Of a DNA stretch of 64,000 bases, positions 26,812 to 59,189 are shown one piece after another (the first letter of the stretch is position 1; the number at the start of each line of letters is the position of its first letter). The notes beneath the pieces were generated by a model. The model was not told the DNA's origin and did not search any database. It saw nothing but the letters and a program-made list of their open reading frames with translations. A program made the position numbers and the translations under genes. Source of the DNA: Schizophyllum amplum (Eukaryota > Basidiomycota > Agaricomycetes > Agaricales > Schizophyllaceae); contig VDMD01000003.1 in assembly GCA_007026445.1 (NCBI GenBank), positions 1,860,001 to 1,924,000 on the forward strand, read 5' to 3'.

Positions 26812-27307
26812 ATGACGCAGACTCCCCCAAACAAGTGAGAAGTCCATTCCCATAGATCATTGCTGTACTTGTTCATTGACTTCTGTACATTAGCCTCGTG
26901 GCCACACTCTCGCATGAAGCCGAGACCACCTCAAACTTCGTATACCTCGGCCAAACCGCCAGCAGGGGACGAAACGTCCTCCAGCGCGTCGAGGACCTGA
27001 GTGCGAATCCCAACATCAGGTCTTTCAGCGTTCACAAAATCGTCTGCGCGTGCAACGCAACTTTGACCAACAACACGTGGGAGTTCAATGACAGTAGCTG
27101 GCGCGATCATGCGACTTCGAATAAATGCAAGTGGAAGGATGTCTCTTCGTCACACAAGCAGGAGATGCAGGCAGAGCTATTGCGCTCACGGATGGTGTCC
27201 AGGGATGAAGCTGTGAGTAATTCCACTACAGTAAGTTGTACTGAATCTGACATTGTAAATTTCAGCTAGTGCGTCTGGTGAGAGAAAATCGGATTAAGAG
27301 GATGTAA
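26812..27307 (+). CDS. cluster finger gene 1 (minimal form)
   Basis: Smallest member: 127 residues from exons 26812-26834, 26894-27212 and 27266-27307. Exon 1 is 23 nt (others 26), still phase 2. There is no Ser-rich linker; after about 30 residues comes RGRNVLQRVEDLSANPNIRS. The finger is C59-x-C61 (CACN, one residue tighter than most), then SWRDH80-x5-C86. The block closes with LLRSRMVSRDEA and the family intron after that Ala codon; the tail is LVRLVRENRIKRM. Its finger is nearly that of the gene at 48444-49452 on the other arm (both CACN, WEFND, WRDHA and EMQAEL). Function unknown. Confidence 0.8.
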
Positions 27308-28285
27308 AGATCCGGAGGGTGTAGGCTGGCGTTGGGCCATCGATTTGGAAATACCATGAGTGTCATTGAGTTATTGCTTCGCGGCCTGCCAGTCGACGCC
27401 ATGTACTTACTTGCCGTACTTACTTACCGTGTTTTCCCTATATGCATGCGTTTGTCTGACCCGTGAGCGCTTATACGCCTGCCGACGTATTCCGGAGACG
27501 CAGCTCTCATTTTTCTGCCTCTCACTGCTCGGGTTCTGCGATACGCAGGCGTGTCCGCTTTCGGAACACGAACATGATCGGCGATCTCCAGAACACGTTA
27601 TCGGCGGCAGCTGCCGATCATACGCCTTGTCTTTCTCGCCCACGGTTAGCGTGCGCCTGCGCCGGTTTGCATAAAACCCCCATGAGATTTACCCTTAGCG
27701 GCATAGACACGTGTGATGCAAGGACTATTCCCGAATCTGATTGAAGAGCTTCACCGCGAGGCCGCACGGACCTCGCAGCCTTCAGGCCTGCCACCAGCGC
27801 CCTCGCGAGCCCACGTTCTCCGGTGAGCGACTGGCCATTGCAGCGATGCTCCTTGATTAACAACAGTTGTGCTTGATGCTGTGTACGCATCGCTTGGAAT
27901 CAGCTCGGCATGCTCACCTCGATGCTCGTCCGCAAGACGACGACCCGCGGGCCGCTGGTGTTTCTCGCCACTGCCACGCGCCGAGCGCGCCAGCTCTCTG
28001 AGGCTGGCTCTAGGCTGAGCATGTGAACTGCCCTTCGCGCTGTAACCAATTCAAGGTACGTGCTGAGACCCTCTCCGATCCATGGTCATAAATCACAGCG
28101 CTCAGGTTATTGTCGAACAAGGGTCGAGGTCACAAAGAGCGACATGCAACGCGGTCCTAAACATGGTCACAGAGACCTGAATGAGTATAAGAACTCGCCT
28201 GTACGGTTGTTGATCCCACCACACAGCTTGACCCTTTCGAGCGACCCACACCACCGCATCTTTACTCGACAATCATTCCAGAAGA
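27308..28285. promoter_or_regulatory. upstream region of cluster gene 2
   Basis: Carries the three blocks that recur between cluster genes: the exact palindrome CGGCAGCTGCCG at 27605-27616 (preceded by GAACATGATCGGCGATCTCC), a donor-like AAGGTACGTGCTGAGACC at 28053-28070, and the TATA-proximal block at 28127-28165 (AGGTCACAAAGAGCGACATG onward). TATAAG is at 28186-28191, 100 nt before the ATG. No gene is supported here. Confidence 0.6.
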
Positions 28286-29294
28286 ATGGCTCAACGTCGG
28301 CATCCCCAAGGGTGAGTAATCGTACCATTGCATGGACGACTCGCTGCCCCGTACTCATCGACTCCCCAGTTCCGTCTATCCCACAACCAGCAGCGATTAT
28401 GCCGCTCCGCCAGCACTGACTCAGCAGCAAATCGAGCGGCGGGGGTGGCTTACCACCGCGGAGGCGTACAGAGGTTTGAATCTGTCGACCCAGCCAAATG
28501 GATCTTCGCCAGCCACCTCTTCCGCGTCTGCCGACACCGTCGGTCACTCGTCCTCCACCGGCACTCCCGTTTACTCGTCATCGTCGAGCTCCAGCGCGTT
28601 CATGTCTTCTGGCAGATCTCAAGCGTATCCGTCTTCTGCCAGCTCTTCGGCCTACTCATCTTCAGGATCTTCTGCATACTCTTCGTCTACCAGCTATCCG
28701 GCGCACTCTTCCTCTGCTAGGGGACACTCGCCTTCCCACACGACTGCCGCCCACCCATCGGCTCGCCCGTCCAACAACTCGCCTCTAGGCCCCTCGTCTG
28801 CTTCATCTACGCTGCTCTCGCCTCTACGGCCGAGCACGGACCAGCGCGTGCGCTCCGAATCCCATTCGGCCACCAGCTCGGATGGAGTCGAGTACACGTA
28901 CATCGGGGTTCGCGCCCTCAGTGGCCGAAACGTCCTCCAACGTGTCGAAAGCATGAGCGCGAATAGCAACATCAAGTCATTTGACGCATATCACATTACG
29001 TGCGCAGGTTGCGACGTGGCTATTTGGACGCGCGGCAGCGCGCTTTACAACGACACTAAAATTGAAGGCCATCAAAACGTATGCAGCGTTCTCCGAGAGT
29101 GGAAGGACCCATTTTCGGCTCACAAACTTACGGCGGCGATGCGGATGGAGCTCAAGCGCTCGCGGAAGGCGTCCAGGGATCAGGCTGTGAGTAAAACCTG
29201 GATAATATTGAGTATGGACATAACATCTGACGAATTTTAGCTAGCGCATCTTGAGAGCGAGGGGTATCTTAGAGTTGTGAGGGTGATTAGTTGA
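28286..29294 (+). CDS. cluster finger gene 2, Ser/Tyr-rich linker
   Basis: 298 residues from exons 28286-28311 (26 nt, MAQRRHPQ plus two bases), 28370-29186 and 29241-29294. Order: a conserved N-terminal motif ALTQQQIERRGWLTTAEAYR (about 25-45), a Ser/Tyr low-complexity linker (about 55-140) built from YSSS-like words, then HSATSSDG and ALSGRNVLQRVESMSAN. The finger is C220-x2-C223, EGH243-x3-C247, followed by LREWKDP, KLTAAMRMELKRSRKASRDQ and the tail LAHLESEGYLRVV. The Trp normally before the His is replaced (KIEGH). The region from HSATSSDG through the finger is closest to the gene at 44657-45512. The linker looks disordered and phosphorylatable; no signal peptide or membrane segment. Confidence 0.8.
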
Positions 29295-30569: not shown

Positions 30570-31349
30570 ATGGCTCATCGTCAACATCCCCAAGGGTGAG
30601 CAGCCAAGTATCAGGCAGTCGAAGGCTCTCGTACTCATGGACTTCCCAGCTCCGTTCACCCTACAGCCGGCCGCAGCCAGCCGGCAGTGACCCAGCAGCA
30701 GATCGAGCGGCTTACTACCGCGGCGGCGTACAAGGGTTTATACCAACCTCCCCAGCCCTCAGGACCTTATCTGTCTCCTCCGTCTTCTGGACCACCGCTA
30801 GCCGCCTCTTCCGGGCATGCCTCTGCTAGCAACCAGCCCCTTGACGTGCGCTGGGCGCCCCTTCAAACGCCGCTCTCGCCTCCACGGTCGTTCCCGGACC
30901 AATCCGTGCGTTCCGAGATTCATACGGTCTTCAGTTCGGATGGAGTCAGGTACAAGTACATCGGCCCTCGAATCAGAGGCCGCGGGCGCAACGTTCTCCA
31001 GCGTATTGAGGACATGAGCGCGGATCCGGACATCAAGTCTTTCGGGCCTTACGACATCGTCTGCGCGGGATGCAGCCGTGTTTGTTTGACGCAAGAGGGC
31101 TCCGGGATTTACCTGGACTACCAGAGTAGCTGGGGGCACCATCGTTGCAGCACTCTCCGGGAGTGGAAGAGCCCGACTTCGGCTCACAAATTCACGGCGG
31201 CGATGCGGGCGGAGCACGAGCGCTCGCGGGGAGCGTCTAGGGATCTGGCTGTGAGTGATTCCCCTCGAAAGTCTTTTATGGACATCATGCCTAACGAGCC
31301 GTAGCTAGCGCATCTTCAGAGCAAGGGGTATCTTGAAAGGGTGTACTAG
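30570..31349 (+). CDS. cluster finger gene 3
   Basis: 223 residues from exons 30570-30595, 30650-31250 and 31305-31349. The N-terminal motif is shortened to VTQQQIERLTTAAAY, missing the QGW present elsewhere. The linker is Pro/Ser-rich without the YSSS runs and ends in NQPLDVRWAPLQTPLSPP, a segment shared with the genes at 44657-45512 and 46637-47461. The finger block (120-209) has C147-x2-C150, then WGH172-H173-R-C175: the His-to-Cys spacing is shorter than the usual H-x3-C, so metal binding may be altered. It ends RSRGASRDLA and tail LAHLQSKGYLERVY. Splice sites are strong and no frame break is seen. Confidence 0.8.
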
Positions 31350-32644: not shown

Positions 32645-33950
32645 ATGGCTCAACGTCAACATCCCCAAGGGTGAGCAGTCTAAGTAACAGGCAATTAAAG
32701 GTTCTCATACTCATGGAATCCCCAGCTCCGTCAACCCCACTGCCGGCCGCGGTCACGGCGCTTTACCGGCACTGACCCTGCAGCAGATTGAGCGGCAAGG
32801 GTGGCTTACCACAGCAGAGGTTTGAATCTGTCGACCAAGCCATATGAACCTTCGCCAGCCGCCTCTTCCGGACCTCCGCAAGTCACATCTTCTGGACCTC
32901 CGCAAGGCGCATCTTCCGGGAATCCGCCCACAGCGTCTTCTAGGTATCCGCCCACAGCGTCTTCTGGGTGTCCGCCCGCTACCTCTTCTGGGAGTCTGTC
33001 CTCTACCGGCTCTCCCGTGTACTCGTCATCTGCGAGCCCTGGCGCGCACATGTCCCCTACCGACCCTGCTATGTACTCGTCCTCCGCCGGCTACGCCGCG
33101 TACTCGTTTTCTGCGAGCTCCAGCGCGTACTCGTCATCTGCGAGCTCCAGCACGTACTCGTCATCTTCGAGCTCCAGCGCATACCCGTCCTCTGCCAGCC
33201 CTCAGGCTTACCCGTCCTCTGCTCGCGGATACCCACTCTCCTCCGCCACTCCTAGTACGGACATATCATCCGGCAACTCGTCTGTTGAACTGCGCCAGGC
33301 GTCGTTCTCGACTACACGCTCCAGCTTTGAATCCGAGCAAGCCACGGCTCGCGGCATCGCGCCTGTGTCGTCGTCGGCGCTCTCGTCTGCTTCGTCGGCG
33401 CCACTCCCGCCTTCACGGTCTCCCGCGGGTCAGCGTCGCGCAATGCGCCCCAAGATCCCCGCGGCCTCCACCCCCGGCGGCCTTGTCCGATACATCTACG
33501 TGGGCGCTCCCACCAACCACGGTCGCAACGTCCTCCAGCGCGTCGAAGGCCTAACCGCGGATCCCATCATACGGTCGTTTGGCACCCACAGTATTGAATG
33601 CGCGTGCGGCATCGAAGTTTCTGACAGTAGTACCAGAGATTACAATGACAAACATTGGCCCGACCATATTGCCCGATGCGGTCTGGCTGCTGCCCGATGC
33701 GGTCTGGCTGCTGCCCGATGCAGTCTGGCTGCTGCCCGATGCGGTCTGGCGCGAGAGTGGGACGACCCGGCGTCGCGCTGGTACCTGACGGCGGAGACGC
33801 AGAGAGAGCTCATGCGGTCGCGGGCGGTGTCCAGGGATGCAGCTGTGAGTGATGAACTGTTCCTTGCTGCTATGTTGTGGTAAGTATGCATCTGACGGTG
33901 GATTACAGCTCGCGTATCTTGAGTATCAACAGCTGATTAGGAGGGTTTAG
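32645..33950 (+). pseudogene. cluster finger gene 4, frameshifted, with repeat-expanded finger
   Basis: Expected exons 32645-32670, 32726-33844 and 33909-33950 are present with good splice sites. However, relative to its sisters about 10 bases (GCG TAC AGA G equivalent) are missing after the codons for WLTTAE near 32820, so the frame from the ATG hits TGA almost at once. The remainder stays open in another frame: a long linker with SSGPP/SSGNPP/SSRYPP repeats and YSSSAS words, LRQASFSTTRSSFESEQATA, then GRNVLQRVEGLTAD. The finger reads CACG ... HWPDHIARC and then carries about 3.8 copies of a 21-bp repeat adding GLAAARC units before LAREWDDP. The tail LAYLEYQQLIRRV is intact. Either a young pseudogene or one rescued by an unseen start or splice. 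Confidence 0.75.
33671..33750 (+). repeat. 21-bp coding minisatellite in finger of gene 4
   Basis: Unit GCCCGATGCGGTCTGGCTGC plus T, 3.8 copies, one with a single substitution (GCAGTC). In frame it repeats the residues RCGLAAA, so each unit adds one extra Cys after the expected zinc ligand. The homologous gene at 46637-47461 has a single copy (HAARCSVAREW). Confidence 0.9.
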
Positions 33951-34588
33951 CCGTGGGCGTGTATGAGTCGCGATGGGCGTGTATGAGTCTTGGGCGTGTA
34001 CTACGGGCCGAGACTCATGGCCAGTAGCTATGTAGTACAAGGCTTTGCCGAGGGGAGTCCACCCCAACGTAGATGCACTTTTGCTGTTCATGCACTTATA
34101 CAGCCATATTCTCAGTCCCAACATATCCCCACTGTCATCGACATATCCGCCCATCATCGACATATGCCCCCATCATCGACATATCCCCATCGTCGAGGGA
34201 CTGACAATTCATCCGCTGCACGGATATAGTAGTGCTAAGCAGGTGCTAAGTACTTTGGATTACTCCCTGATGATTGATCTCAAGTTCGTAAGCGTCGCGG
34301 CGAAGTGACCAGCGGTAAGCAGGATCATCCCAAGTTCTCCCATCACGCTCTCTACCCACCTGCCTACCACGCTCTCTACTACCCACCTTCCCATCACGCT
34401 CTCTACCACCCCTCCTCCCACGACTTTGCCCCTCCACCGTCCACGCCCACCGGTTGCCCTCACGCCCACCGGTTTCCCTCCGAACGCCCATCCACACTCC
34501 CGTCTTTCCCAGGTCTTTCCCCACCCACAAACCTCTCCTCACGCCCACCGCTTTTTATCACTATACCTACCCACTCCTCATCCCTCAT
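33951..34588. other. intergenic with short tandem repeats
   Basis: Includes repeats of CATCGACATATCC-like units at about 34117-34196 and a C/T-rich run with CACGCTCTCTACCACC units at about 34340-34420. No gene is supported; the tRNA gene starts at 34589. Confidence 0.6.
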
Positions 34589-34696
34589 GGCCTAATGGTC
34601 TAGTAGTATGATTCTTCCTTCGGGTTCTCCGCAACCCGCGCCGTAACCCGACGCGTCAGATGGAAGAGGTCCTGGGTTCAATTCCCAGTTAGGCCC
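34589..34696 (+). tRNA. tRNA-Pro(CGG) with 36-nt intron
   Basis: Acceptor strands GGCCTAA (34589-34595) and TTAGGCC (34689-34695) pair fully, with discriminator C34696. The D-arm region TGGTCTAGTAGTATGA (A box) and T-arm CTGGGTTCAATTCCCAG (B box) are typical. The anticodon stem CTTCC/GGAAG encloses loop TTCGGG-T with anticodon CGG at 34621-34623. An intron 34625-34660 follows position 37, the canonical site. The mature length would be 72 nt. Confidence 0.9.
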
Positions 34697-36599
34697 CTAG
34701 TTGCGTATTAATATTTTTTTTCGTCATTCTTTTCATGCGTTTACTATCTTTCTTCATGCGTTTATGTACTATCTTCCTTCATGCGTTTACTATCTTTCTT
34801 CATGCGTTTACTATCTTCCTTCATGCGTGTACTATCTTTTTTTTCATTTGTTCGTTATGATGATTGACTCGTCGAGTGCGTTTCTTTTGACTTCTCAGCT
34901 GGGTTTTTGATTTAGCTGCACAGGTGGGTTTTTTGACTGCACATATGGATTTTGAATACGCGTCAAGTCGCCCTCAAGCGGCTACACTGTACCCGCCGTC
35001 CATGATATCGTTTTGACTCCCCCTCGTGCTCTCGCCCCCTCGTCGGGCCTGCGTTCCCTCGTCCCTGCGTTCCCTCGTCCCTGCGTTCCCTCGTCCCTGC
35101 GTCCCCTCACGGTTCGTCCTCTCGCCGTCCTCGAATCGCCCTGGCCTGGTTCAACTTCCTCTCGTCCTCAAAATACCCATCTCTCCACCTCACTCCCTCT
35201 CTCACCACCGCCCGTGGTCCTCGCCCGTCCCGCCCCTCGCCCATTGCACCCTCGTCCCTGCGTCCCCTTGCCGCTCATCCTCTCGCCGCCCGTTGCACCT
35301 TCTCTCGCGTCTCATCCTGTCGTGTCTCTCGTAGTCCTCTCGCTGCCTCTCCGCCCTCTCGCTGCCTCTCCGCCCTCTCGCTGCACCCCGTCCCCTCGTC
35401 CTCTCGCACCGTTATCCCTCTTGCCTCGCAGCCCCCTGGCCTGCCGCAAACTCGTCGTCATCTGGCCTGCCGCAAACTCGTCGTCCTCAAGCGGGGCCAC
35501 CCTCTCCTCCTCGAGCTCGTCTCCTCATCCTCAAGCGGGGCACGCCTCTCGCCACCCGAAGCGCAGAATATACGGGGAGCGCAAATGCGAGGTTATACAG
35601 TATAGTCGGAGGTGGAGGCGTAGAGTCGGAGGTGGAGGCGTAGAGTCGGAGGTGGAGGCGTAGAGTCGGAGGTGGAGGCGCTAGAGTCGGAGGTGGAGGC
35701 GCAGAGGCGTAGACTCGGAGGCGCTAGAGGCGCAGAGGAGATTATACTAGAGGAAGCGCAGAGGAGGTTCGGAGGTGGAGGCGTAGAGGAGGGTCGGAGG
35801 TGGAGGCGCAGAGGAGGGTCGGAGGTGGAGGCGCTAGAGGCGTAGAGGAGGGTCGGAGGTGGAGGCGTAGAGTCGGAGGTGGAGGCGCTAGAGGCGTAGA
35901 GGAGGTTCGGAGGTGGAGGTTATACGAGAGGAAGCGCGGAGGCGAGGTTATACTAGAGGAAGCGCGGAGGCGAGGTTATACTAGAGGAAGCGCTGCAGGA
36001 GGTTGTACTAGAGGTAACGTTAGAGGGAGGTAACGTTAGAGGAGGTCATAAGTACCTGAGGAAACGCTAGAGGAGGGAGAGGTCCCGGATTCGCCTCACG
36101 ACTCGGGAGAGGTCCCGGATTCGCCTCACCTCACCTCACCAGGGTGACAGCCAGAAACATCGTGAGTTAGAGTCATCGTGCATATCCTCTCCCTCATCGC
36201 TCACACATCCTCTTCTCATCGCGCATATCCTCTCCTCCTCGCGCATATCCTCTCCTTTATCGCGCATCCTTTCCTCCTCGCGCATATCCTCTCCTCATTG
36301 CACAGACATCCTCTCCTCCTCGTGCATATCCTCTCCTACTCGCGCATATCCTCTCATCGCACAGACCATCGAGTCCAAGTCGCATTCATCGCGTCCAAGT
36401 CGCATTCATCGTATGTGTATGATCACGTAAACAACATTTTCCCCTATTTCACCTCCCCCCCTCAATCCTCCCTACCCCTCACACCCCTCCCTACCCCTCA
36501 ATCCTCTCCCCCCTCAATCCTCCCTCTCTCCTTCCCGACCTCTTCCCACTCCTCCCTCAATCCTCCCTCTCTCCTTCCCGACCTCTTCCCACAACTGCC
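34697..36599. repeat. minisatellite-rich spacer
   Basis: Successive tandem arrays: CATGCGTTTACTATCTTTCT units (34731-34850), CCTGCGTTCCCTCGTCC units (about 35044-35110), CTCTCGCTGCCTCTCCGCC units (about 35335-35395), GTCGGAGGTGGAGGCGTAGA units and variants (about 35595-35915), AGGAAGCGCGGAGGCGAGG units (about 35930-35995), and CGCATATCCTCTCCTCCT units (about 36178-36360). No coding or RNA gene is supported. Confidence 0.8.
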
Positions 36600-36768
36600 C
36601 ACGCATGCTTCGCTACTCGAACCCCTACTTCCCCTCATCGCTCGAACCGCTTCCACGCATGCTTCGCTACTCGAACCGCTTCCACCCCCCTCAATCCTCA
36701 CCCCCTCACCCCTCTGAATCCTCCCCCCCGAACCGCTTCCACGCATGCTTCGCTACTCGAACCGCTTC
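36600..36768 (-). repeat. minisatellite copied from NOP53 terminal exon
   Basis: Three degenerate copies (about 36600-36622, 36652-36680, 36733-36768) of the NOP53 final-exon sequence that encodes YEKHAWKRFE. In each, AAGCATGCGTGGAAGCGGTT or its core is recognisable, with TAGCG replacing TACGA. They lie just downstream of the NOP53 stop and have no open frame of their own. Confidence 0.75.
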
Positions 36769-36820
36769 CTCCCACTCTTCCCCTTCTCCCTCACCCCTCA
36801 CCCCTCACCCCTCCCTACCC

Positions 36821-39800
36821 CTAATCCTCCCTCTCGAACCGCTTCCACGCATGCTTCTCGTACTCGACCGTCCGGCGGACGCGTTTGGAGGGGCTGGGTG
36901 GGTGGGTTAGCGATGAGTTGAGGTGATTCGTGGTAGGCGGGTGATGAGTCGAGGAGAGGAGAGAGGGGAAGAGGTGTTGGGGGTGGGGGGGGAAGAGAAC
37001 AAAGGCGGGCGAGAGGGAAAGGAGAGTGGAGGGAGTTGGTGTTGGGGAGAAGGAGAGGGAGGAGAGGGGGGAAAAAAGGCGAGAGGGCGAAAGGGAAGAT
37101 AGAAACCAAAGGATAGGAGATCGACCACCGCATCCCCGTGAGCGACAACCACAACCCCCCAAAAATCACGACCACTCACATCACCCGAACCCTCGGCTCC
37201 ACCAGCGCCCGGCTCTGCATGCTCAGGAGACGGTCCCGGAATAGGTTGCCTTCGGGCTGTTAAGGAGGAATTAGTTCACGTATATTTGGGAAGGGGGGTG
37301 CGTTAGTTTGATTACGCGGGAGAGGGTGGTTAGCGTTGAGTAAGGGGTGGGGAAGGGGGGGTATTTAGTTTAATTACGCGGGAGAGGGCGTGTTTAGGTT
37401 AATTACGCGGGAGAGGGTGGTTAGCGCAAGATTACGAGCACGATGAAGGACCGGTACGAGCACGATGAAGGACCGGTACGAGCACGATGGAAGACCGGTA
37501 CGAGCACGATGAAGGACCGGTACGAGCACGATGGAGGACCGGGGTGGAGAGGGAGGTAGAGGAGAGGGCGTTCTTGGGCGGGGAGGGGGCGAGGGACAAG
37601 GGGGACAAGGAGCCGGGGGCGTAAAGGTGGGGGACGTGGAATCGGCCGGACGCTCGTAACCAATCAGCCGGACGCTCGTAACCAATCGGCCGGAGGCTCG
37701 TAACCAAAGAGCACCGGACGCTCGTAACCAAACCCACACGCCACAACCAAACCCGAAAAACGCACCTTCACCCCCCTCAAACTCCCACTCAGCTCCTCCC
37801 CCAGCTGTACATCGGGCGCGACTATGCCCCCTTTACCACTGCCCACCACCATCCCACCCCCTCCCATACCACCGCCCACCCGGTGTTTACCGATCTTGGA
37901 CCCCAGAAGCCCAAGCTTGCGCAGCCGGGCGGCGCGCGCGAGGCGGTTCTGAGGGAGGGGTGGGTGGGTTAGTAAGGGCGGTAAAAGGAGGGTATAAGGG
38001 CGGTCAATAGCGGCCCCTCAACCGGCCTCAAAACTCGACGGGCCTCAAAGTCGACGGGCCTCAAACTCGACGGGCCTCAAAACTCGACCGACTCTCTCTC
38101 GACAACCAACAGCCGACTCTCTCTCGACAGCCAATTCCATCCCCCCCCCCAATCCCCTTTACCCTCGCAAAATCCCAGCCTCCCCTCCACCCCCCCCCCC
38201 CCCCCAACCCCTCCCAATCACACCACTCAAAAAAACCTCACCCCCCCCCCCCCCCCAATCACCACAAATCAAGTAAACACCTCGCAAAACCTCTCTCCCC
38301 TTCCCAATCACCACTCAAAAAACACTCAAAAAAAACCACATAACTCACCCCCTCCCCCCTCACCCCCCTCTCCCTCGCCTCCCTACCCACCCGCCGCCGG
38401 AGCGCGCGCGCCCCCGGGAGGGAGGCCAGGAGCCGCTTGTGTCGGGTGAGGGCGAGGCGGGTGGTGGTCTGTTGGAGTAGTCAGTAGACTATAGAGGGTA
38501 AAAGGGTGGGAAGGTTTTGGGTTAGTGAGAATGCCTAAACAAACACGCACCTCGGCCTTCACCCTCGCTTCCCGGGCGCGTTGCTGTCTCGTTTTGCGCG
38601 GTGGGGCGGGGCGGGGGAGGGCGTGGTTGGTGGTGTTGGCGTTTTCGTCGTCGTCGGCGTCCTGGTCCGTATTGTCGTCCTCCTCCTCACCGACGGGCAG
38701 GACGGTCATGCCTAGCGAGGGTGCGCGTTAGTGATGAGGTGGTGAAGGGAGGCGAAGGTGGGGTGAGGGGTGAGGGGGGCGGTGGGTGGGAGGCAAAGGT
38801 GACGGTGGGTGGGAGGCAAAGGTGACGGTGGGTGGGAGGCAAAGGTGACGGTGGGTGGGAGGCAAAGGTGACGGTGGGTGGGAGGCAAAGGTGACGGTGG
38901 GTGGAAGGGAAGGGTGGAGGGAAGGGCGGGGAGAATGAGGACGAGGGAGAGGGCGGGGTGAGAGAAGGGCGGGGAGAAAGGGCGAAAGGAAATCACAGCG
39001 GCCCATTATATGCAGGAGAGTTAAGCGCGTAGACTCACCCCGCGCCATCCCCAACTCATACTCGCTCGCGCCCTTGATGCGCTCCCCGACGTCCTTGAAC
39101 TTGTTTTCTTCCTTGAGCCGTCGTTTCTCGATCTGGTATGGCTCCGTCAGGAACGTTTGATGCGCGAGCATCGAGAGCTTACCTCGTAGGCTTCGAGGAG
39201 GAGCTCTTGGTGTGCGTCGACGGGCGGATTGTAGGATGCGCCCGCGTGGGGGGTGGGGACGGCGGGTGCGGCGATGAGGGCGGAGGGGTGGGTGTGGGTG
39301 GGGGGCTGGTGGATGGTGAGGTGGGTAGGGGGAGGGAGGCAGGAGGGAGGGGGAGGGGAAGGAGGAGGGCAGGAGGAGGGCAGGAGGAGGGAGAGGGCAA
39401 GGGGGAGGTAAAACAAAGAAAGGAGACGTCAGCGCACGACTCGACGATATGCATGCGACGAACACACCTTGACCGGTTTCGGCTTGACCATTTCGGAGAC
39501 TCCAAAGCCGTTGTCCTTGTCGTCCTCATCGACGTCCATCTCCCAAACATCGTACGTGCCACTGTGCTTGACGGCCTCGGTGGGCTCGAGCAGCGCGCTC
39601 CCCTTGCCGAGCTCGGTGCCATCAACGTGCGAGCGCAGGGGTCCGCGGCGGGTGCGCCCTGCCGCGCGCATCAAGCGGTCCTTCTCTGCGCGGGGCACGC
39701 TCGCCGCCTTGCGCTTCTGCCCCACCGCGGGCACCGCCGAGCGCTCGGCGAGGATGGCGAGGCTTTTGAGCTGCCGCGGGATGGCCTTTCGCACACCGTC

Positions 39801-40016: not shown

Positions 40017-40110
40017 GATGGTTGGTGTCGACGACGATGGATGGAAAATGTGATCGCAGGCGCGGGTGATCGGGATGATGGACGCCACATATTGCTTGCT
40101 GTCAACCGCG
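40017..40110. promoter_or_regulatory. divergent promoter of NOP53 and Alba genes
   Basis: Only 94 nt separate the proposed start codons. No TATA box is seen, as is common for co-regulated ribosome-biogenesis genes. If the Alba gene used the earlier in-frame ATG at 40075 the spacer would shrink to about 60 nt. Confidence 0.5.
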
Positions 40111-41197: not shown

Positions 41198-41310
41198 GCC
41201 GCACCCACATTGCACCTTGAGCCGCACCCACATCGCATCTTTAGCCGCACCCACACCCTCAGCCGCCCACCAGCCTTCCCGCACCCACACCGCATCTTTA
41301 GCCGCGCCCA
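41186..41310 (+). repeat. repeat starting at Alba stop codon
   Basis: Units of about 23 bp (GCACCTTGAGCCGCACCCAC and variants with GCATCTTTAGCC) begin inside the last Alba codons, include the TGA, and continue downstream. The array therefore grew from the end of the reading frame. Confidence 0.75.
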
Positions 41311-43489
41311 CCTCCTTCACCAACCCGCCCGCCTCATCCTCCGCCACCTTCACCACCCTCTCCTTCACCACCCTACCATTAACCTCGCTGCGTCCAACTC
41401 CCCCACCGCACCCTCCCCTCCACCAACTCCCTCTCCTCCTCCAACTCCCTCTCCTCCTTATCCGCCAGCACCCACACCGCGCCCATATTCTCCCCCCCCC
41501 CCCCATACCCTCCGGCACCCACCCCCACGCCTCGCACAGTCCACCCCCACCCGGCTTCTTTCGCGAGGGAGGGCAGGGTAGGGAGGGCAGGGGTCGGAGG
41601 AGGGGGGGCGGGGCAGGGGTCGGAGGAGGAGGAGTGGGGAAGGGCAAGGGGTAGGGGAAGGAGGAGGAGGAGGGGGGCAGGGCAGGGGTCGGAGGAGGAG
41701 GAGGGGGGCAGGTCCCAGCGACCAGTCACCAGCCGATACAGAGCGGTAGTCACCAGCCCATACAAAGTGGAAGCGCACCGCAAGCCAGTGGTGCGGGTGC
41801 GGGTGCGGGTGCGAGTGACGGTGGTGCGGGTGCGGGTGCGAGTGACGGTGGTGCGGGTGCGAGTGACGGTCGGAGGAGGAAGCGGGTGCGAGTGACGGTC
41901 GGAGGAGGAAGCGGGTGCGAGTGACGGTCGGAGGAGGAAGCGGGTGAGGATTCAGGGGGAGGAAGCGGGTGAGGATTCAGGGTGGGGACGCGGGTGAGGA
42001 GGGGGAGGAGAGGTAGGGGGTGGGAGAGGATGGCTGGTAAGGAGAGGTAGGAGGGGGTAGGAGGGATGGAGGGGATGGACAAGTGACGCGCGCGGGGAGG
42101 GACAAGTGACGCGCCCTCTTCGCTGGGACGCGCCCTCTTCGCTGGGACAAGCGCGCGCGGGGGGACAAGGACGCTCGCACTGGACGCGAAGGTGCCGGGT
42201 GCACGAACGGCGCGGGTCGGTGCCGGGTGCACGAACGGCGCGCGGGGAATGAGAACGGCGCGCGGGGAATGAGAACGGCGCGCGGGGAATGAGAACGGCG
42301 CGCGGGGAATGAGAACGTTCGGCGGGTCGGTCCTGGGACAAGAACGCGCGCGCGGGGACACAGACCCTCCATCACGCCCTCGCACTTCGCCCGTTGGCGC
42401 TTCCGCCCGACGCCCCCCTTCGCCCAACGCCCGTCGCCCCTCGCACTCCGCCCCCCTTCGCCCGTCGCCCCTCGCCCGACGCCCTCGCCTCCGCCCTCCG
42501 CCCGCCTATCTGCCTCAGTCCGTGCCCTCCCCCTTCGCGCCCGAACGCCCTCCACAAGCGCCCTCGCCCTCCCCTTCGCCCCCATCGCGCCCTCCGCCCA
42601 TTTCGCCCGTCGCCCACGCCCCCATTCGCCTTCGCCTTCCACCCCATTCGCCTTCGCGCGCCTCAGTCCGTGCCCTCCCCATCCGTCCCCCGACCACTAT
42701 CCCCCTCCGTCCCCCATCATGCGCCTTCGCCCATCGCCCTCTCCCTCGCCCTCGCGCCTGCCTAGGCGAGGCCGCCTTCGCCCGCCTCGCACCACGCCCC
42801 CCTTCGCACCACACTCGACCACGCCCCCGTCACGTCTGCCTAGGCGAGGCCGCCTTCGCCCGCTTGCTAGGGGAGGCCGGCCTTCGCCCGGCGCCCTCGC
42901 CTTCGGCCAGGAGGGGGGACGCGATCGGCTAGGAGGTGGGACGCGATCGGCTAGGAGGTGACGCGATTGGCTAGCGAGGGGGGGGGGGACGCGAGCGGCG
43001 GGATGAGAACGGATCCCAATGGGATGAGAACGGATCCCAATGGGATGAGAACAGATTCCAATGGGATGAGAACAGATTCCAATGGGATGAGAACGGATCG
43101 CAATGGGATGAGAACGGATTCTGGGATGAGGAGAGGAGGGAGCGACGGGGCGAGAAGACGGTGCAGGTGCAAGACGAAAGACGGGCGAAAGACGGGGCGA
43201 GAAGACGGGACGAGAAGACGGGGCGAGAAGACGGGGCAATGGGGAGACGAGGGGGCGAGAAGACGGGGCGAGAAGACGGGACGAGAAGAGGGCACGAAAG
43301 AGGGGCGACGGGGCGACGGGGCGACGGGGCGAAAGGCGGCGGAAGGAGTAGGCGAGGAGACATTGGGGCAAGGTGACGTGGTAGAAGTCGAGAGCACGGG
43401 TGGCGAAGGGGACGATGGGCGGCGATGGAGGACGGGAAATCTCCAGGAGTCACCGGGCGGCGACGGACCAGATTTTTAAATTTCCCCTC
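41311..43489. repeat. GC-rich minisatellite field
   Basis: Dense tandem arrays with no supported gene. They include CTCCAACTCCCTCTCCTCCT runs, GGTCGGAGGAGGAGGAGGGG, GTGCGGGTGCGAGTGACGGT units (about 41790-41945), GCGCGGGGAATGAGAACGGC units (about 42235-42310), CGCCCGTCGCCCCTCGC-type heptads (about 42385-42700), GGGATGAGAACGGATCCCAA plus T units (six copies, about 43003-43130) and GACGGGGCGAGAAGACGG units (about 43190-43340). Long open frames here are by-products of low-complexity GC-rich DNA. Confidence 0.85.
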
Positions 43490-43746
43490 GGCGGAGTAAT
43501 GTGTCCAGCCTACGGCGTGCCCCGGTGAAGATGTGTCCACTGTGCGGACGGAGATTTGTGCGGACGGAGATTTGCCACTTTCCAACTCTGACATCAGATA
43601 TATCCTGTATGGTACTCTACCTATGAACGTAACAGATGCACCGTTGAGGGGAAAACCTCGACACCGTCCTGGACGCATCTTCACCCCCTGCCGAGCTGGA
43701 CACATCTTCACCGGGGCACGCCGCAGGCTGGACACATTACTCCGCC
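43490..43746. mobile_element. inverted-repeat element with 50-bp arms
   Basis: Arms 43490-43539 and 43697-43746 are reverse complements with one mismatch (GCCTACGG versus GCCTGCGG in the same orientation). They start GGCGGAGTAATGTGTCCAGC. The 157-bp loop holds a direct repeat TGTGCGGACGGAGATT and several TGGACRCATCTTCACC words. No target-site duplication is obvious and no transposase is encoded, so this may be a MITE or a repeat-derived palindrome. Confidence 0.65.
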
Positions 43747-43852
43747 GTCCTGGAGTCTGGACGCGCCGAGCTGGACACAGTGCAATACTTACCAGGCCGT
43801 TCGGGTAGTCAAACATCATCAGAATATACTTACATGGATGAGAAAACAGGCA

Positions 43853-44050
43853 AAACAGGCATGAGCGATGAAAAACATGGCATGAGCGATGAAAAACATG
43901 GCATGAGCGATGAAAAACATGGCACTGTGAGCGAGGCAAAAAACATGGCACTGTGAGCGATGAAAAACATGGCACTGTGAGCGAGGCAAAAAACATGAGT
44001 GATGAAAAACATGGCACTGTGAGCGAGGCAAAAACATGAGGCAAAAACAC
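43853..44050. repeat. minisatellite beside right tRNA gene
   Basis: Interspersed units GAGCGATGAAAAACATGGCA and CTGTGAGCGAGGCAAAAAAC, about nine in total, end roughly 50 nt from the tRNA 3' end. Confidence 0.85.
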
Positions 44051-44097
44051 ATGTTACAGTGGGAAAAAGATCATGTTCCAGTGGTAAAAAAGATCAT

Positions 44098-44232
44098 GGG
44101 CCTAACTGGGAATTGAACCCAGGACCTCTTCCATCTGACGCGTCGGGTCACGACGCGGGTTTGAACACCCGCGCCTCCAGCGCGGGTTGCGGAGAACCCG
44201 AAGGAAGAATCATACTACTAGACCATTAGGCC
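44098..44232 (-). tRNA. tRNA-Pro(CGG) with 63-nt intron
   Basis: Mature sequence matches the left tRNA gene base for base where compared: acceptor GGCCTAA/TTAGGCC, the same A and B boxes, anticodon CGG (plus-strand 44198-44200 read in reverse). The intron at 44134-44196 is 63 nt: it keeps both ends of the 36-nt intron but contains an inserted segment including GCGGGTGTTCAAACCCGC. It faces the left copy across 9.4 kb. Confidence 0.9.
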
Positions 44233-44656
44233 GTGAAGGCAGGGTCACGGGTGAGTTATCTGAGGAAGGGAAGCAGGTGGGTAGGTTTCTTGAGGAAGGG
44301 AAGGCGCGCGTCAGGACGAGGAGGGCGCTGTTTAGGCGTCTCAGCGAGGCAGGCGCTGTTTGGGCGTCTCAGCGAGGCAGGCGCTGCTGGGTGGTCCTGT
44401 GGGTAAAAGGACTCGGTGTCAAAAGGACTCGGTGTCAAAAGGACTCGGTGTCAAAAGGACGTGGAGTTGCTTGAATACTTGACTGTCGAACAAATACAAA
44501 GTTGCCCCGCGAGCCGGTGGACGTCTTGCATACAGTTGGGTCCCATCGTCGGCGAGGAGATTATACATGAATTATGGATCATGATTATACATGAATTATG
44601 GAACATGATTATACATGAATTATGGATCATGATTACACCCTGTCTATAAACTAGTA
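44233..44656. other. intergenic with short tandem repeats
   Basis: Holds repeats GTCTCAGCGAGGCAGGCGCT (about 44337-44385), AAAGGACTCGGTGTC units (about 44406-44460) and TACATGAATTATGGATCATG units (about 44565-44630). It includes the 3' side of cluster gene 5. No gene. Confidence 0.7.
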
Positions 44657-45512
44657 CTACACCCTCTCAAGATACCCCTCGGCCATAAGATGCGCCAGCT
44701 AAGAGCTCGTCAGATCTCGTGTCCATATACGATGATATAAGGAAAATCACTCACAGCCTCGTCTCTGCTTGCCTTCCGCGAGCGCTCGTGCTCCGCACGT
44801 TTTGCCGCGGTGAGCGTTCTGGCTGAAGTCGGGTTGTTCCAATCTCGAAGCACGCCGCATGTCGTCTTGTGGCTCTCCCAGGTATCTCGGCAGTCGTCGT
44901 AAAGGACGGCGCCGCGGCGTGTCGAGATAGCGACGCCGCAGCCCGCGCAGGCAATGGCGTACGGCCCGAAAGACCTGATCGTGGGATTCGCGCTCATGTC
45001 CTCAACGCGTTGGAGGACGTTTCGACCACTGAGGGCGCGAGTGCCGGTGTACATGTACTTAACGAGTCCATCCGAGCTGGTGGCCGAATGGATTTTGGAG
45101 GGCACGCGTTGGTTCTTGTACGGCCGTGGAAGCGGGAGCGGCGTTTGAACAGGCGCCCAGCGCACGTCAAGGGGCTGACTATTAGCAGAGGAATGCCCGG
45201 AAAAGGCGGCAGGATTCTTCCCGGACGAGGCGGCTAGCGGAGGCGCAGAAGATGGAGCAGATGGCGGAGGTCCAGACGCCGTAGCAGACGTGCTAGAAGA
45301 TCCAGCTGGCTTTGGAGGCTGATATAAACCTCTGTAAGCCTCCGCAGTAGTAAGCCACCCCTGCCGCTCGATTTGCTGCTGAGTCAGTGCCGGCGAAGCG
45401 CCGTGACCGCGGCTGGCTGTGGGATCAACAGAGCTGGGGATTCCATGAATATGTGAGCCTTTGACTGGCTGGCACAGACTGCTCACCCCCGAGGATGTTG
45501 GCGATGAGCCAT
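44657..45512 (-). CDS. cluster finger gene 5
   Basis: First gene of the right arm; 248 residues from exons 45487-45512 (26 nt, MAHRQHPR plus two bases), 44755-45433 and 44657-44698. N-terminal motif ALTQQQIERQGWLTTAEAYR is complete. The linker is Pro/Ser/Ala-rich (SSSTSATASGPPPSAPSSAP) and ends SQPLDVRWAPVQTPLP, shared with genes 3 and 6; it then switches to HSATSSDG and ALSGRNVLQRVEDMSANPTI, shared with gene 2. Finger: C171-x2-C174, TWESH197-x3-C201, LRDWNNP, RSRKASRDEA; tail LAHLMAEGYLERV. TATAAG (minus) at 45604-45609. No defect seen. Confidence 0.82.
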
Positions 45513-46636: not shown

Positions 46637-47461
46637 CTACACCCTCTGAATCAGTTTTTTGTCCTCAAGATACGCGAGCTAAAGTTCATCGTCAGACACA
46701 CCATTCCAGATCGCTCAGAATAGCAACAAGAACCTTTCACTCACAGCCTGATCCGTGGACGCCCTCCGTAAGCGCGTGAGCTCTTCCTGCGTCTTCGCCG
46801 TCAGGTAGTAGCGCGAAGCCGGGTCGTCCCACTCTCGGGCCACACTGCATCGGGCAGCATGGTAGAGCCAATGCTTGTCGTTGAAGTCTTTGCTATGATC
46901 AGAAACATTGGTTCCGCATGCGCACTTGATATTGCAGGCGCTGAAAGACTGTATGATGGGATCCGCGCTTATGTCTTCGACGCGCTGGAGGACGTTCCGA
47001 CCTTGTCTTGGAGAAATTCCCGCGTAGATGTACTTGAGTCCATGCGAGTCGGAGACCGAATGGACCTTGGGGCGCACGCGGTAGCTCTTGGACGGCCGTG
47101 GAGGCGAGAGCGGCGTTCGAACGGGCGCCCAGCGCACGTTGAGGGGCTGATTGCTAGCAGAGGAATGTCCGGAAGAGGCGGCTGGCGGAGGCGCAGAAGA
47201 TGGAGCAGATGGCGGAGGTCCAGACGGCGTAGCAGACGTGCTAGAAGATCCAGCTGGCTTGGGAGGCTGATATAAACCTCTGTAAGCCTCCGCAGTAGTA
47301 AGCCACCCCTGCCGCTCGATTTGCTGCAGGGTCAGTGCCGGCTGAGCACCGTGGCTGCGACCGGTTGTGGAATTGATGGGGCTGGGAGGTCGGTGAGTAT
47401 GAAATTCTTTTATCATGCGAAGGTCGAATACTCACCCTTGAGGACGCTGACGTTGAGCCAT
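46637..47461 (-). CDS. cluster finger gene 6
   Basis: 234 residues from exons 47436-47461 (26 nt), 46745-47381 and 46637-46678. N-terminal half follows genes 3 and 5: ALTLQQIERQGWLTTAEAYR, a near-identical SSSTSATPSGPPPSAPSSAP linker and NQPLNVRWAPVRTPLSPP. The finger half instead matches the broken gene 4: RNVLQRVEDISADPIIQSF, CACG (C162-x-C164), HWLYH183-x3-C187, AREWDDPASRYYLTAKTQ. It is therefore a mosaic. The end ASTDQA lacks the usual Arg of SRD. Tail LAYLEDKKLIQRV. TATAAG (minus) at 47553-47558. Confidence 0.82.
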
Positions 47462-48443: not shown

Positions 48444-49452
48444 CTACACCTTCTCAACCAGTTTCTTGTCCTTAAGATACGCAAGCTAAAGTAAATCGTC
48501 AGATATCTCATCCGGATTTAGCTGAAAGGACATAAAACTCACAGCCCGATCCCTGGACACCCTCCGTGAGCTCGATAGCTCCGCCTGCATCTCTTCCCTG
48601 TAAGATGAAGGGCGATTTTTCCACAGGCATCTACTTGAACTCGCATGATCGCGCCAGGTCGTGTCGTTGAATTCCCACATGTTGTTCGTCATTGTAACGT
48701 TGCACGCGCATACGACTTGATGGACGGCGAACGCCTTGATGTTGGGATTTGCGCTCATGTCTGCGACGCGCTCGAGGACATTTCGCCCACGGAAGGCTTG
48801 GGTGCCGATGTACATGTACTCAATTCCGCTCGAGTCGGAGACCGTATGGATCTTGGGGCGTACGCGCTGGTCCGTGGACGACCGTAAAGGCGGGAGCGGC
48901 GACGACGAAACAGACGAGAGGCCGCGAGCCGTGGCTTGCTCGGATTCGAAGCTGGAGCGTGTAGTCGAGAACGACGCCTGGCGCAGGTCGAAGGGAGAGT
49001 TGCCGGATGATGTGTGCGTAGGAGTGGCGAAGGAGGGTGGGTATCCGCCAGCAGAGGCCGGGTACGTCGAAAAACTGGCAGAGGACATGTACGCGCTGGA
49101 GCTCGAAGACGACGAGTACGCGTTGGAGCTCGAAGATGACGAGTACGTGCCGGAGCTCGAGGAAGACGTATAAGCGGGAGTGCCGGTGAAGGTCGAATGA
49201 CCGAAGGTGCTGGCAGACCCGCAAGATGCGGCTGGCGAAGATCCATGTGGCTGGGTCGACAGATTCAAACCTCTGTACGCCTCCGCAGTAGTCAGCCACC
49301 CTTGCCGCTCGATCTGCTGCTGGGTCAGTGCCGGTGAAGCGCCGTGACCGCGGCCGGCGGTGGGGTTGGCGGCGCTGGGGGGTCGATGAGTATGAGTGTT
49401 TTAGTATGCAGAAGTCGGATACTCACCCTTGGGGACGCTGATGTTGAGCCAT
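48444..49452 (-). CDS. cluster finger gene 7, Ser/Tyr-rich linker
   Basis: 299 residues from exons 49427-49452 (26 nt, MAQHQRPQ plus two bases), 48543-49374 and 48444-48485. Complete N-terminal motif ALTQQQIERQGWLTTAEAYR, then NLSTQPHGSSPAAS and a long YSSSSSSNAYSSSSSSSAY-type linker. The segment LRQASFSTTRSSFESEQATA is shared with the broken gene 4 and gene 9. The finger, RNVLERVADMSANPNIKAF with C231-x-C233 (CACN) and TWRDH252-x5-C258, matches gene 1 on the opposite arm. Ends SRRVSRDRA; tail LAYLKDKKLVEKV. TATAAG (minus) at 49532-49537. Confidence 0.82.
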
Positions 49453-50954: not shown

Positions 50955-51526
50955 CTAGCACGCTCTCTCAATATACCCCTCGCGCTCAAGATGCGCCAGC
51001 TAAGACTCGTCAGATATCGTATTCATACATAATATTCAAAAGGCACTCACAGCCAGATCCTTGGACGCCTTCCGCGAGCGCTCGTGCTCGTCCTGCATCT
51101 CCGCCGTAAACTTTCCAGGAGAGTCAGGGTTCCACCACTCTCGCAGTGAGCTGCATATCTTCTGGTGGTATTTCCAGTTACTAAGATTATCCTGGTAAAT
51201 CCCGGAGCGACTGCGCGTCGAGACAGCGCGGCCGCAGCCCGCGCAGATGATGTGTTCGGGGCCGAACGACTTTATGTTAAGATTCCATCTCATGTCTTCG
51301 ACGCGCTGCAGGATGTTTCGCCCGCCGCCTGTCATTTTAGTCCCGATGTATTCGTACTCGGCTTCATGGGAAGTAGGAGCCGCGGAGGTGGATGTGTGCA
51401 CCCGCTGGTCAGTGGACGACTGGGGAGGAAAGAGCAGCGACACGGATCTGGGGATTGGATGAAATGCCATCCCTGAACTGACCGATGTTTGCTCACTCAC
51501 CCTTGGGGATGCTGACGTTGAGCCAT
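50955..51526 (-). CDS. cluster finger gene 8 (short form)
   Basis: 155 residues from exons 51501-51526 (26 nt), 51051-51447 and 50955-50999. It lacks the QQQIERQGW motif and the Ser-rich linker: the second exon opens at SVSLLFPPQSSTDQRV and goes straight to TSAAPTSHEAEYEYIGTK, a segment shared with gene 9. Finger block GGRNILQRVEDMRWNLNIKS, C77-x2-C80, NWKYH103-x3-C107, LREWWNP, RSRKASKDLA; tail LAHLEREGYIERAC. With gene 1 it shows that finger plus tail is the minimal conserved unit. TATAAA (minus) at 51607-51612. Confidence 0.8.
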
Positions 51527-52570: not shown

Positions 52571-53752
52571 TCAAAGGTCCTGCACCCGCACAATCTGATT
52601 CTCCCTCAGAAGATGTGCTAGCTGAAGTAGATGTCAGACATCGCAAAACTCGAGACTGCAGAAGAATTACTCACAGCATTCTCCTTTGACACCATCCGCG
52701 ATTGCTTGAGCGCCGCACGCATTTCTGCTGTGAGCTTGTGAGACGAAGATGGGTTCTTCCACTGTTGGAGAACGCTGCACGCCGTCTGGTGGTATTCCCA
52801 GCTGCCTTCAGTGTCTCGGTAAATTTTGATGCCACGGCGCGTCGATATAGCGCGTCCGCAGCCGGCGCAGGTGATGTGGTAAGGGCCGAACGACTTGATG
52901 TCCGGATTCGCGCTCATATCGTCGATACGCTTGAGGACGTCTCGACCGCCGCCCGTGTTGCGACTAGCAATATACTTAAACTTGGCTTCATGCGAGGGAG
53001 CCGCGGAGGTAGGTGCGTGCATTTGCTGGTCCATCGACGGCCGTGAAGTCGAGAGCGGCGAGGACGAAGCGGATGGGAGGCCGGGTAAGAATTGCTCATC
53101 GGACTCTTCGAAGCTGGAGCGGGTGGTCGAGAACGACGCCTGACGCATAACGAAGGGCGCGTTGCCGGATGATAGGTTCATAGGAGTGGGGGAGGAGAGC
53201 GAGTATCCGCTAGTAGAGGACGCCGGATACGCCAAAAAGCTGGCGGAAGACGAGTACGCTGGAGAGGTCGCAGACAACGAGTATACTGGAGAGCTCGAAG
53301 AAGACGTGGACTCGGCATAGCCGGTGGAAGACGAGTATACGGGAGTGCCGGTAGAGGCCGAGGACATGGGATAGCCAGTAAAGGACAGATGCATGAAAGA
53401 GCCAACGGGCGGATTTCCGAAAGACGCTGTGGGCGGATACCGGGAACACGCTGTGGGCGGATTCCCGGAAGATGCGACTGACGGATGCCCGGAAGATGCG
53501 ACTGGCAGATGTTCATATGAAACGGCTGGTTGAGGTCCATACAGTGGCTGGGTCGACAGATCCAAACCTCTGTACGCATCCGCGGTAGTAAGCCACCCCT
53601 GCCGCTCAATCTGCTGCTGTGTTAGTGCTGGCGGGGCGCCATGACCGCGGCTGCCTGTAGGGTTGACGGAGCTGGGAACTCGATGAGTATGGGGCCGCTC
53701 GACCATTCGATGCTTTGGTTGCTCACCTGCGGGGTTGTTGACGTTGAGCCAT
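52571..53752 (-). CDS. cluster finger gene 9 (longest form)
   Basis: 357 residues from exons 53727-53752 (26 nt, MAQRQQPR plus two bases), 52675-53671 and 52571-52621. N-terminal motif ALTQQQIERQGWLTTADAYR; then a linker with SSGHPS/SSGNPPTA repeats like those of gene 4, YSSSTGYAESTSS words, and MRQASFSTTRSSFEESDEQF. Close to the finger it switches to TSAAPSHEAKFKYIAS as in gene 8. Finger block GGRDVLKRIDDMSANPDIKS, C277-x2-C280, SWEYH303-x3-C307, QQWKNPSSSHKLTAEM, ending SRMVSKENA; tail LAHLLRENQIVRVQDL. TATAAG (minus) at 53831-53836. Confidence 0.82.
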
Positions 53753-54887
53753 TCTTCTCAGGTTGTTTTCGGGGGTAAAGACACAGTGTCTTGAATCGCT
53801 GGAGGAGTGTGAGCAGCGCGTCAACGAGCTCTTATACCCAGCCGCGAGTCTTTATGACCATGTTTGGGACCGTGTTGCATGTCGCCCTTTGTAACATCGA
53901 TTCTTATGCGATTGTGACCTGAGTGCTGAGATTTATGACCAGGTATCTGAGACATTTACCCTGACTTGGTCCCAACAGCATGAAGACCACATGTTCCGAG
54001 TTCGATCTGGAGCTCGCGTGCGTGGCGCGCAACGACGGCGAGAAAGACGAGCTGGGAGTTGAGTCAGTTCGTATACAACTTTGAGCACTGAAGGTGTGCT
54101 CTTATATATACAATGAAGGGCGAAATTTGCTCCCCCTGGATTGGCGTCGTGATGTCGGGTCGCATAGAGAACGTGCACCAACGGGGCGCAGGCTCGAATT
54201 TGGCGGAAGGGTGAGGGAAATCGACTCTCCCAGACTGCATCTGAGTGGACTGTTGAGGCTGCACATACAGATGTATGCATGCCGCGTCAAGCTACAGTGG
54301 ATCGCGTAACCATGTACATAATCGAGGGCAATGGGCGCGCTGGGACAAGGCGTGCGATCGGCAGCTGCCGCAGATAACGTGTTCCGGAGAATGCCGAACA
54401 ATGTTCATCTTCCGCAAGCAAGCAACACCAAACATGCACAGTGAACAAAGTTCGAACGACATCGCATTTGTTGTCTTTCTACAGCTGACTAAGTCCTTTC
54501 TTCTAGAGGCTCCTACTAGGGGTATGAAACGATCTGTAGGCGAGACAAGCACCAGTCGGGGAACACATGCAGGTTAGAAAACAAGCGCAAATTGGGGAGA
54601 CAGGGTTGTTCTTGTATTATATCGGTAGGTAGAGTACATATGTCGAGCGGGATTTACGACGTGGTAGTGTAGAAATATGTTTAATAGGCAACGCGAGGAT
54701 GGATAGGTGCGGCAGTGATGGCTGAGTACAGCGCGAATGGACGAGCGCAAGGAGGACTTGGCAGGATCAGCACAGCGACTACACGGGCGGCTGGAAGTGT
54801 TGTCACGACAGAGCCTGTTCAACATAAGGCGAGCTCTCACGTCGCTCGCCGACGGCCCAACGCCAGCTCAGTATAGTCTTCGATCTC
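53753..54887. promoter_or_regulatory. upstream region of cluster gene 9
   Basis: TATA 53831-53836, TATA-proximal block 53859-53896, weak donor-like block about 53951-53975, palindrome CGGCAGCTGCCG 54359-54370 followed by CCGGAGAATGCCGAACAATG. No gene supported. Confidence 0.6.
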
Positions 54888-55884
54888 CTACAGCCTCTGG
54901 ACCAGCTTTCTGTCTTCGAGGTACGCCAGCTGAATTACATGTCAGTTGTGGTACCCAACCTCTATGTTGCAAAGATACCACTTACAGCGTTATCCAATGA
55001 CGCCATCCGTGAGCGCTCGTACATCCGACCCTGCTCTTCCGGCGAGAGTTTCCGGGGCGAAGACGGGTTCTGCCAGCCTTGAAGAGTGAGGCATTTCATC
55101 TGGTGCCACTTCCAGGCGCTATAGCGATTATCGTAGAGCATGGGTGATGATCCGTGTGCCACTAACATAACGTAGCCGCATCCTGCACAGACGATGTTTT
55201 CTGCGTCGAATGATCGTATGTTGATATCCGCGGCCATTTCCTCGACGCGTTGGAGGACATTTCGCTTCATGCCGGTGCCATGGCCACAGTAGATGTACTG
55301 GGTTCCATCTGAGCTGATAACCCGATAGCTACTATCGAGTTGCGCGCGCCGCTTCGCAGACGACCGCGGAGGCGGCAGCGGCGATGGAGCGGACGGCTGA
55401 CGGACGTCGAAGGACGAGTTGCTGGATGAGCGCGCGGAGGGGCGTGCTGAATTGGAGGGCGGGTGTCCGCTAGCAGACGAGCGTGTGGGTGAGCTGGGAT
55501 ACGCATAACCATCGTGAATCACATACCGCCTTCCGTCCGGAGTGACAACCCCGCTGTTGCGCATGGCGGCGGGATGGTTGTGTCTAAGGCTATGGTTACA
55601 CGTCTCTGCAGAATAATCATCTCGACGACGTACCCTGCTGCATATGCCGTGTCGCCCTGTCCAAGATAGTGCGGCGTGGTGCGGGACTGTGACTGCGGCG
55701 GTGGCTGAGCACGCGGGACTGGCTGGCTTCGCGGTACTGGCTGGTTCTGCGACGCCGGGCTGTCAAGGATGAAGTTGAGGTCGAACTTGCGACTGGCGGG
55801 GCTAATGGGCGGTGAGTAGGTACGTCAGATGATCGTCAAACCCCGGATTGCTCACGTATTCTGACGTTCAGATTGAGACGACAT
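54888..55884 (-). CDS. cluster finger gene 10, outer right copy
   Basis: 268 residues from four exons: 55856-55884 (29 nt, MSSQSERQN), 55634-55801, 54986-55553 and 54888-54929. It has an extra intron and a different N-terminus (Gln/Pro-rich, QPVPRSQPVPRAQPPPQSQS) without the QQQIERQGW motif. A second ATG at 55564 falls inside the last bases of intron 2, so it is not the start in this model. Finger block KRNVLQRVEEMAADINIRSF, C188-x2-C191, AWKWH216-x3-C220, LQGWQNPSSPRKLSPEE; ends SRMASLDNA; tail LAYLEDRKLVQRL. TATAAG (minus) at 55975-55980. The most divergent central member, at the cluster edge. Confidence 0.78.
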
Positions 55885-59116: not shown

Positions 59117-59189
59117 GGCTGGACGCTTAGCCTCCGAGGCTGGATGCCGGCTCGGATGAAGCGATTCATGACGACGATGGACAACTGTT

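Follow-up and report, generated by a model that had tools for sequence, protein, structure and literature searches.

A tandem array of putative C2HC finger genes in Schizophyllum amplum and its relation to a broader, unnamed finger of fungi

Which kind of protein do the repeated genes between positions 26812 and 55884 of a 64,000-nucleotide stretch of the Schizophyllum amplum genome encode, and how have they come to form an array? The stretch (contig VDMD01000003.1, positions 1,860,001 to 1,924,000, hereafter the window) belongs to a basidiomycete that shares its taxid with Auriculariopsis ampla. The original prediction, made from the DNA letters alone, described ten tandem genes with a common block that carries a C2HC pattern of Cys and His residues. 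In our analyses all ten blocks were present where it had put them, reading C-x(1-2)-C ... H-x(1-5)-C. With the block of copy 5 (at 45024) as query against the whole genome, the other nine were found at E-values of 3.7e-31 to 3.3e-10, and the ten blocks are therefore true paralogues rather than chance likenesses. Aligned stretches of the DNA copies reach 1,365 bases in length, with 67–84% identity (stretches longer than 80 bases). The same search recovered the two divergent relatives proposed for the window, with E-values of 1.6e-8 and 3.3e-8.

The proposed C2HC pattern held up in an alignment of 31 rows, comprising the ten copies of the window, one of its two divergent relatives and 20 locus rows, among the latter the second divergent relative and 4 fingers of a wider family described below. 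Left out were the near duplicates L014 and L075, further copies on contig C236, L024, whose matched piece stops before the last Cys (a wider reading retains one), and L030 (C54:34050), a damaged relative in which the first Cys is absent and a stop is present. Among 56 columns filled by at least 28 letters, only four were invariant in 31 of 31 rows, and these were C, C, H and C. Their spacing varied: 20 rows read C-x2-C/H-x3-C, 6 read C-x2-C/H-x1-C and 5 had other arrangements, 4 of them with C-x1-C. The H-x(2-5)-C spacing first assigned to the ten blocks is really H-x(1-5)-C, given the H-x1-C of copy 3. A Trp three residues before the His was found in 26 of the 31 rows; it is absent from copy 2. 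AlphaFold predicted the block with a mean predicted local distance difference test score (pLDDT) of 85 and a predicted template modelling score (pTM) of 0.75, in the order helix, strand, strand with CxxC, strand and helix with WxxH, followed by the last Cys and two further helices. The domain is very probably a metal-binding finger, in which C, C, H and C would together hold one zinc.

No Pfam family matched 8 of the 10 copies (all but copies 4 and 8, which were not in the scan) or the two divergent relatives, and among the papers listed by literature searches none described this finger family. In this respect the earlier impression of a family without a name was correct, but the family is not isolated. 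A divergent query led, at an E-value of 0.02, to a gene on contigs C19 and C246 with three fingers of the type C-x2-C ... W-x2-H-x3-C, the second of which is, by our reading, split by an intron. This gene has 16 relatives in the protein collection, one of them from S. commune (GGF50DRAFT_112953, P0018), whose deposited model spans only the first part of a finger; further relatives lie on C21 and C289. Profile comparison with hhalign aligned the ten window blocks with 23 of these wider fingers at a probability of 96.7% over 60 columns, and 27 rows of array members and divergent relatives at 98.0% over 58 columns, whereas 50 column-shuffled controls, run for the ten-block profile only, did not exceed 5.2%. 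AlphaFold gave the wider finger the same order of elements (pLDDT 79, pTM 0.61), a model not fully independent of that of the block, as array members or divergent relatives made up 9 of the 26 rows in its alignment. These profiles make the array family one branch within a broader, unnamed family of fungal fingers, which we take to be spread through the Agaricomycetes, and not a wholly new kind.

The expansion in S. amplum reaches beyond the window. With four protein queries and a best E-value of at most 1e-3, we found family members at 34 places across the assembly, 25 of which lie on the contig of the window (C223) between 1,802,174 and 2,201,958, i.e., over about 400 kb, with 12 in the window, 4 before and 9 after it. 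The remaining 9 are distributed over C236 (5), C54 (2), C299 (1) and C90 (1). Weaker places on C288, C266, C19, C246, C21 and C289 and the second piece of copy 4 are not part of this census, which gives minimum numbers for large families and may include allelic contigs; C54:37241 and C223:2081787, for example, share 88% protein identity. Searches of the protein collection found no array-type members outside S. amplum, although they need shared 5-residue words and absence elsewhere is thus not proved. C223 showed no telomere array.

Some contigs also bear on copy number in the assembly itself. C19 and C246, like C21 and C289, carry the same or nearly the same genes and seem to be haplotype pairs; with both haplotypes present in places, copy counts are affected. 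On C236, four long relatives of the finger family (112547, 123962, 135381 and 146785) follow each other at about 11.4 kb. Two 3-kb loci around them (L048, L049) are 99.8% identical, so either large units have recently been repeated in tandem here or the series stems from the assembly.

How far are the ten copies whole genes? The deposited S. amplum protein BD626DRAFT_535124 (P0001, 223 aa) is identical to the spliced model of copy 3, which supports a design of three exons. Exon 1 encodes nine residues, MA(Q/H)RQHPQG (MAQRQHPQG in a typical member). Then come SVxPT..., a conserved N-terminal motif, ALTQQQIERQGWLTTAEAYRGL, a Ser/Pro-rich stretch, presumably a disordered linker, and the finger; the short last exon encodes LA(H/Y)LE..YLERV. 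This whole design was found in six copies (2, 3, 5, 6, 7 and 9), whereas copy 1 is truncated, copy 4 frame-broken, copy 8 short and copy 10 different, so that the count of ten genes applies to blocks rather than to complete genes.

On the plus strand, the RN(V/I)LQR motif of copies 1–4 starts at 26970, 28926, 30987 and 33524. Copy 1 (26931–27212, CxC/Hx5C) is 5'-truncated and has neither exon 1 nor the N-terminal half. Copy 2 (28286–29294; exons 28286–28311, 28370–29186 and 29241–29294) reads CxxC/Hx3C, and copy 3 (30570–31349; exons 30570–30595, 30650–31250 and 31305–31349) CxxC/Hx1C. In copy 4 (32645–33950) the reading frame of exon 2 is broken downstream of the QQQIER motif; its finger block (33485–33844), which reads H-x3-C, is lengthened after this point by a minisatellite of a 21-bp unit at 33670–33750. 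On the minus strand, the motif of copies 5–10 starts at 45024, 46999, 48785, 51320, 52944 and 55264, with the variants RNVLER in copy 7 and RDVLKR in copy 9. Copies 5 (44657–45512; exons 45487–45512, 44755–45433 and 44657–44698) and 9 (52571–53752; exons 53727–53752, 52675–53671 and 52571–52621) read CxxC/Hx3C, and copy 6 (46637–47461; exons 47436–47461, 46745–47381 and 46637–46678) CxC/Hx3C. Copy 7 (48444–49452, CxC/Hx5C) has its ATG at 49452 (MAQHQRPQG), the end of exon 2 at 48543 and exon 3 at about 48444–48485; its exon 1 would be spliced by analogy with the other copies. The short copy 8 (50955–51526; exons 51501–51526, about 51051–51477 and 50955–50999; CxxC/Hx3C) is without the QQQIER motif, and copy 10 (54888–55762, CxxC/Hx3C) has another N-terminal half, a finger block at 54986–55303 and exon 3 at about 54888–54929. 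The divergent relatives lie at 14531–15454 (plus strand, finger from about 15194) and at 23745–24497 (minus strand), the latter an open frame that is for the most part shared by the deposited protein P0020 (BD626DRAFT_627581).

With four copies on the plus and six on the minus strand, all members of the array point toward a GC-rich core (34000–44600), which is dense in minisatellites (86 rows of Tandem Repeats Finder over 33500–45000, many overlapping). Between the two arms, this core carries a Nop53 gene (39429–40196, minus strand; PF07767, E-value 9.1e-37), which is not a family member. Elsewhere in the window, an unrelated second local duplicate (59238–59609 and 61092–61477, 70.6% identity over 401 columns) carries a Cys/Trp-rich stretch (CCGW), and the frames 59189–59698 and 61214–61840 had no Pfam match. 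A 93-base inverted repeat pair with 93.5% identity was found at 16271–16363 and 17115–17207.

Local expansion with a conserved ligand pattern had been taken as a sign of a rapidly evolving binding function. This idea is partly borne out. The expansion is clear and modules were probably exchanged, but the finger block is under purifying selection. Among 19 blocks, the median ratio of nonsynonymous to synonymous substitution rates (dN/dS) was 0.47 (170 computable of 171 pairs), a rough estimate because synonymous change was often large, and the proportion of nonsynonymous differences exceeded that of synonymous ones (pN > pS) in 2 of the 171 pairs; average diversifying selection was thus not seen. 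Mean pN/pS was 0.40 from the Trp to the last Cys and 0.44 from GRN to the first Cys, and it reached 0.71 in the loop, 0.71 in the tail and 0.75 before the block.

What is new here is that the 5' halves and the finger halves of the genes have conflicting relationships. The tree of the 31 rows had good support for 6 of its 28 inner branches and did not resolve most window copies; copy 10 paired with a copy at C223:2100241 (support 87/61). When the eight copies that carry exon 1 were compared, nearest neighbours in the 5' part were not those in the finger part. Copy 4 was closest to copy 5 around the start (88.8% identity) and to copy 6 in the finger part (76.8%), each in 100% of 500 column resamplings; copies 4 and 5 share 90% identity upstream and 57% in the finger. 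Pairings of modules other than those of copy 4 are less well supported. In 22 of 28 pairs, identity was higher in the upstream DNA (350 bases before the ATG; 61–90% among the eight copies) than in the coding finger, with means of 70.5% versus 62.4%. From these conflicting neighbours we infer that modules were probably exchanged, i.e., that ectopic recombination or conversion exchanged or homogenised the 5' halves.

Taken together, we favor, with some confidence, a reading of the family as intracellular, perhaps nuclear, nucleic-acid-binding C2HC proteins encoded in a recombining array. Each block would form a single metal-held finger domain on a flexible Ser-rich arm. Signal sequences were not obvious by eye in the family proteins, and basic clusters resembling nuclear localization signals occurred in only 3 of the 10 proteins inspected (copy 2, P0020 and L036). 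BED- and matrin-type fingers bind nucleic acid, and a weak likeness of layout to them suggests the same for the present finger; that DNA or RNA is its main ligand we regard as an evenly balanced question. Ectopic recombination in the inverted, minisatellite-rich array could then create new pairings of a promoter and N-terminal half with a finger half.

Alternatively, the array may mostly be the product of neutral birth and death of genes in a region prone to recombination, with a few functional copies among many that drift and no function as a repertoire. The damage in copies 1 and 4, the stop at C54:34050, the drift in metal-site spacing and a dN/dS near 0.5, which is relaxed, would all fit. 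This account is nevertheless rather doubtful in view of the ligands intact throughout the aligned rows, the rarity of pairs with pN > pS and the upstream DNA retained among the eight copies.

Another, unlikely possibility is a finger for protein interaction, i.e., a C2HC module of the BIR type that grips peptides or proteins, with the array as a recognition repertoire, for example in non-self recognition or conflict. BIR domains have the order CxxC, W-x2-H, C and then a helix, as seen in the array finger. Among the 50 PDB matches that Foldseek listed for the block, 43 were chains of BIR or inhibitor-of-apoptosis (IAP) type, all weak with E-values above 1; among matches listed for viral structures, 7 of 50, likewise weak, were named inhibitors of apoptosis, and about 14 of the 50 weak matches listed for the wider finger were of BIR/IAP type. 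Profile likeness to BIR was weak too, with scores of 20.6–27.6 and probabilities of 9–63% depending on the profile, against a maximum of 16.9 in 60 shuffled controls of the joint profile. Against this stand the Hx3C of the array finger, shorter than the BIR spacing, and the lack of a profile match: BIR (PF00653) did not match the 8 copies and 2 relatives in the Pfam scan, and its genome scan at E-values up to 10 hit a BIR gene on C235 as well as four weak places, but no family member. As modelled, the fold matches to BIR, like those to BED, are too weak for membership.

That the blocks are BED-type relics left by hAT-like transposons, spread together with mobile elements or by them and without host function, is improbable, since zf-BED (PF02892) matched none of the 8 copies and 2 relatives at E-values up to 10, no transposase domain was found in 25 neighbouring frames scanned (no search was made for terminal inverted repeats or target-site duplications), and most copies are local, spliced and subject to purifying selection. 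The zf-BED genome scan listed 3 places, none of them a family member. A BED-like finger (L087, G000:C1:3858993-3859100) reading VRCAGC ... H ... KH reached profile probabilities of 65–79% against window and array rows; it may lie between BED and the array finger family, although a value of 9% for the wider finger further weakens the transposon origin.

What might such an array mean for the fungus? We may tentatively speculate that S. amplum keeps a private combinatorial finger repertoire, some 25 copies in 400 kb with modules exchanged by ectopic recombination, directed at targets that change quickly, for example repeats or non-self. Subfamilies would then differ in the spacing of the metal site itself (CxC or CxxC; Hx1C, Hx3C or Hx5C). 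Expanded KRAB-zinc-finger and allorecognition families follow a comparable logic. Should the proteins prove to bind DNA, the array would form a lineage-specific repertoire of regulators or of genome defence in mushroom-forming fungi; if they bind proteins, it could serve as a recognition repertoire. In either case, it offers a concrete fungal domain (C2HC finger, R..eRI helix, W-x2-H) that had no match in Pfam among the proteins scanned, a burst of a C2HC finger into an array in one lineage, and a natural experiment both on the tolerance of a finger for altered ligand spacing and on the reshuffling of gene halves.

Among known systems, zf-BED has a layout of CxxC, a long spacer, a hydrophobic residue three positions before a His (hydrophobic-x2-H) and His or Cys as fourth ligand. 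The array finger resembles it weakly in fold and differs by the missing profile match and by the absence of a hAT transposase in the frames scanned. A survey of C2H2 fingers in Basidiomycota reports zinc-finger gene expansion in Schizophyllum commune (PMC12295980); it is based on PF00096, a profile without a match in the array family. The wider unnamed finger shares with the array finger an N-terminal helix R..eRI, C-x2-C, about 19 residues and W-x2-H-x3-C, and it likewise lacks a Pfam entry in the proteins scanned. From this finger the array family differs by a single finger per protein, variable ligand spacing, local expansion and an added C-terminal tail, LREW.(N/D)P ... RSR.(A/V)S(R/K)D.A.

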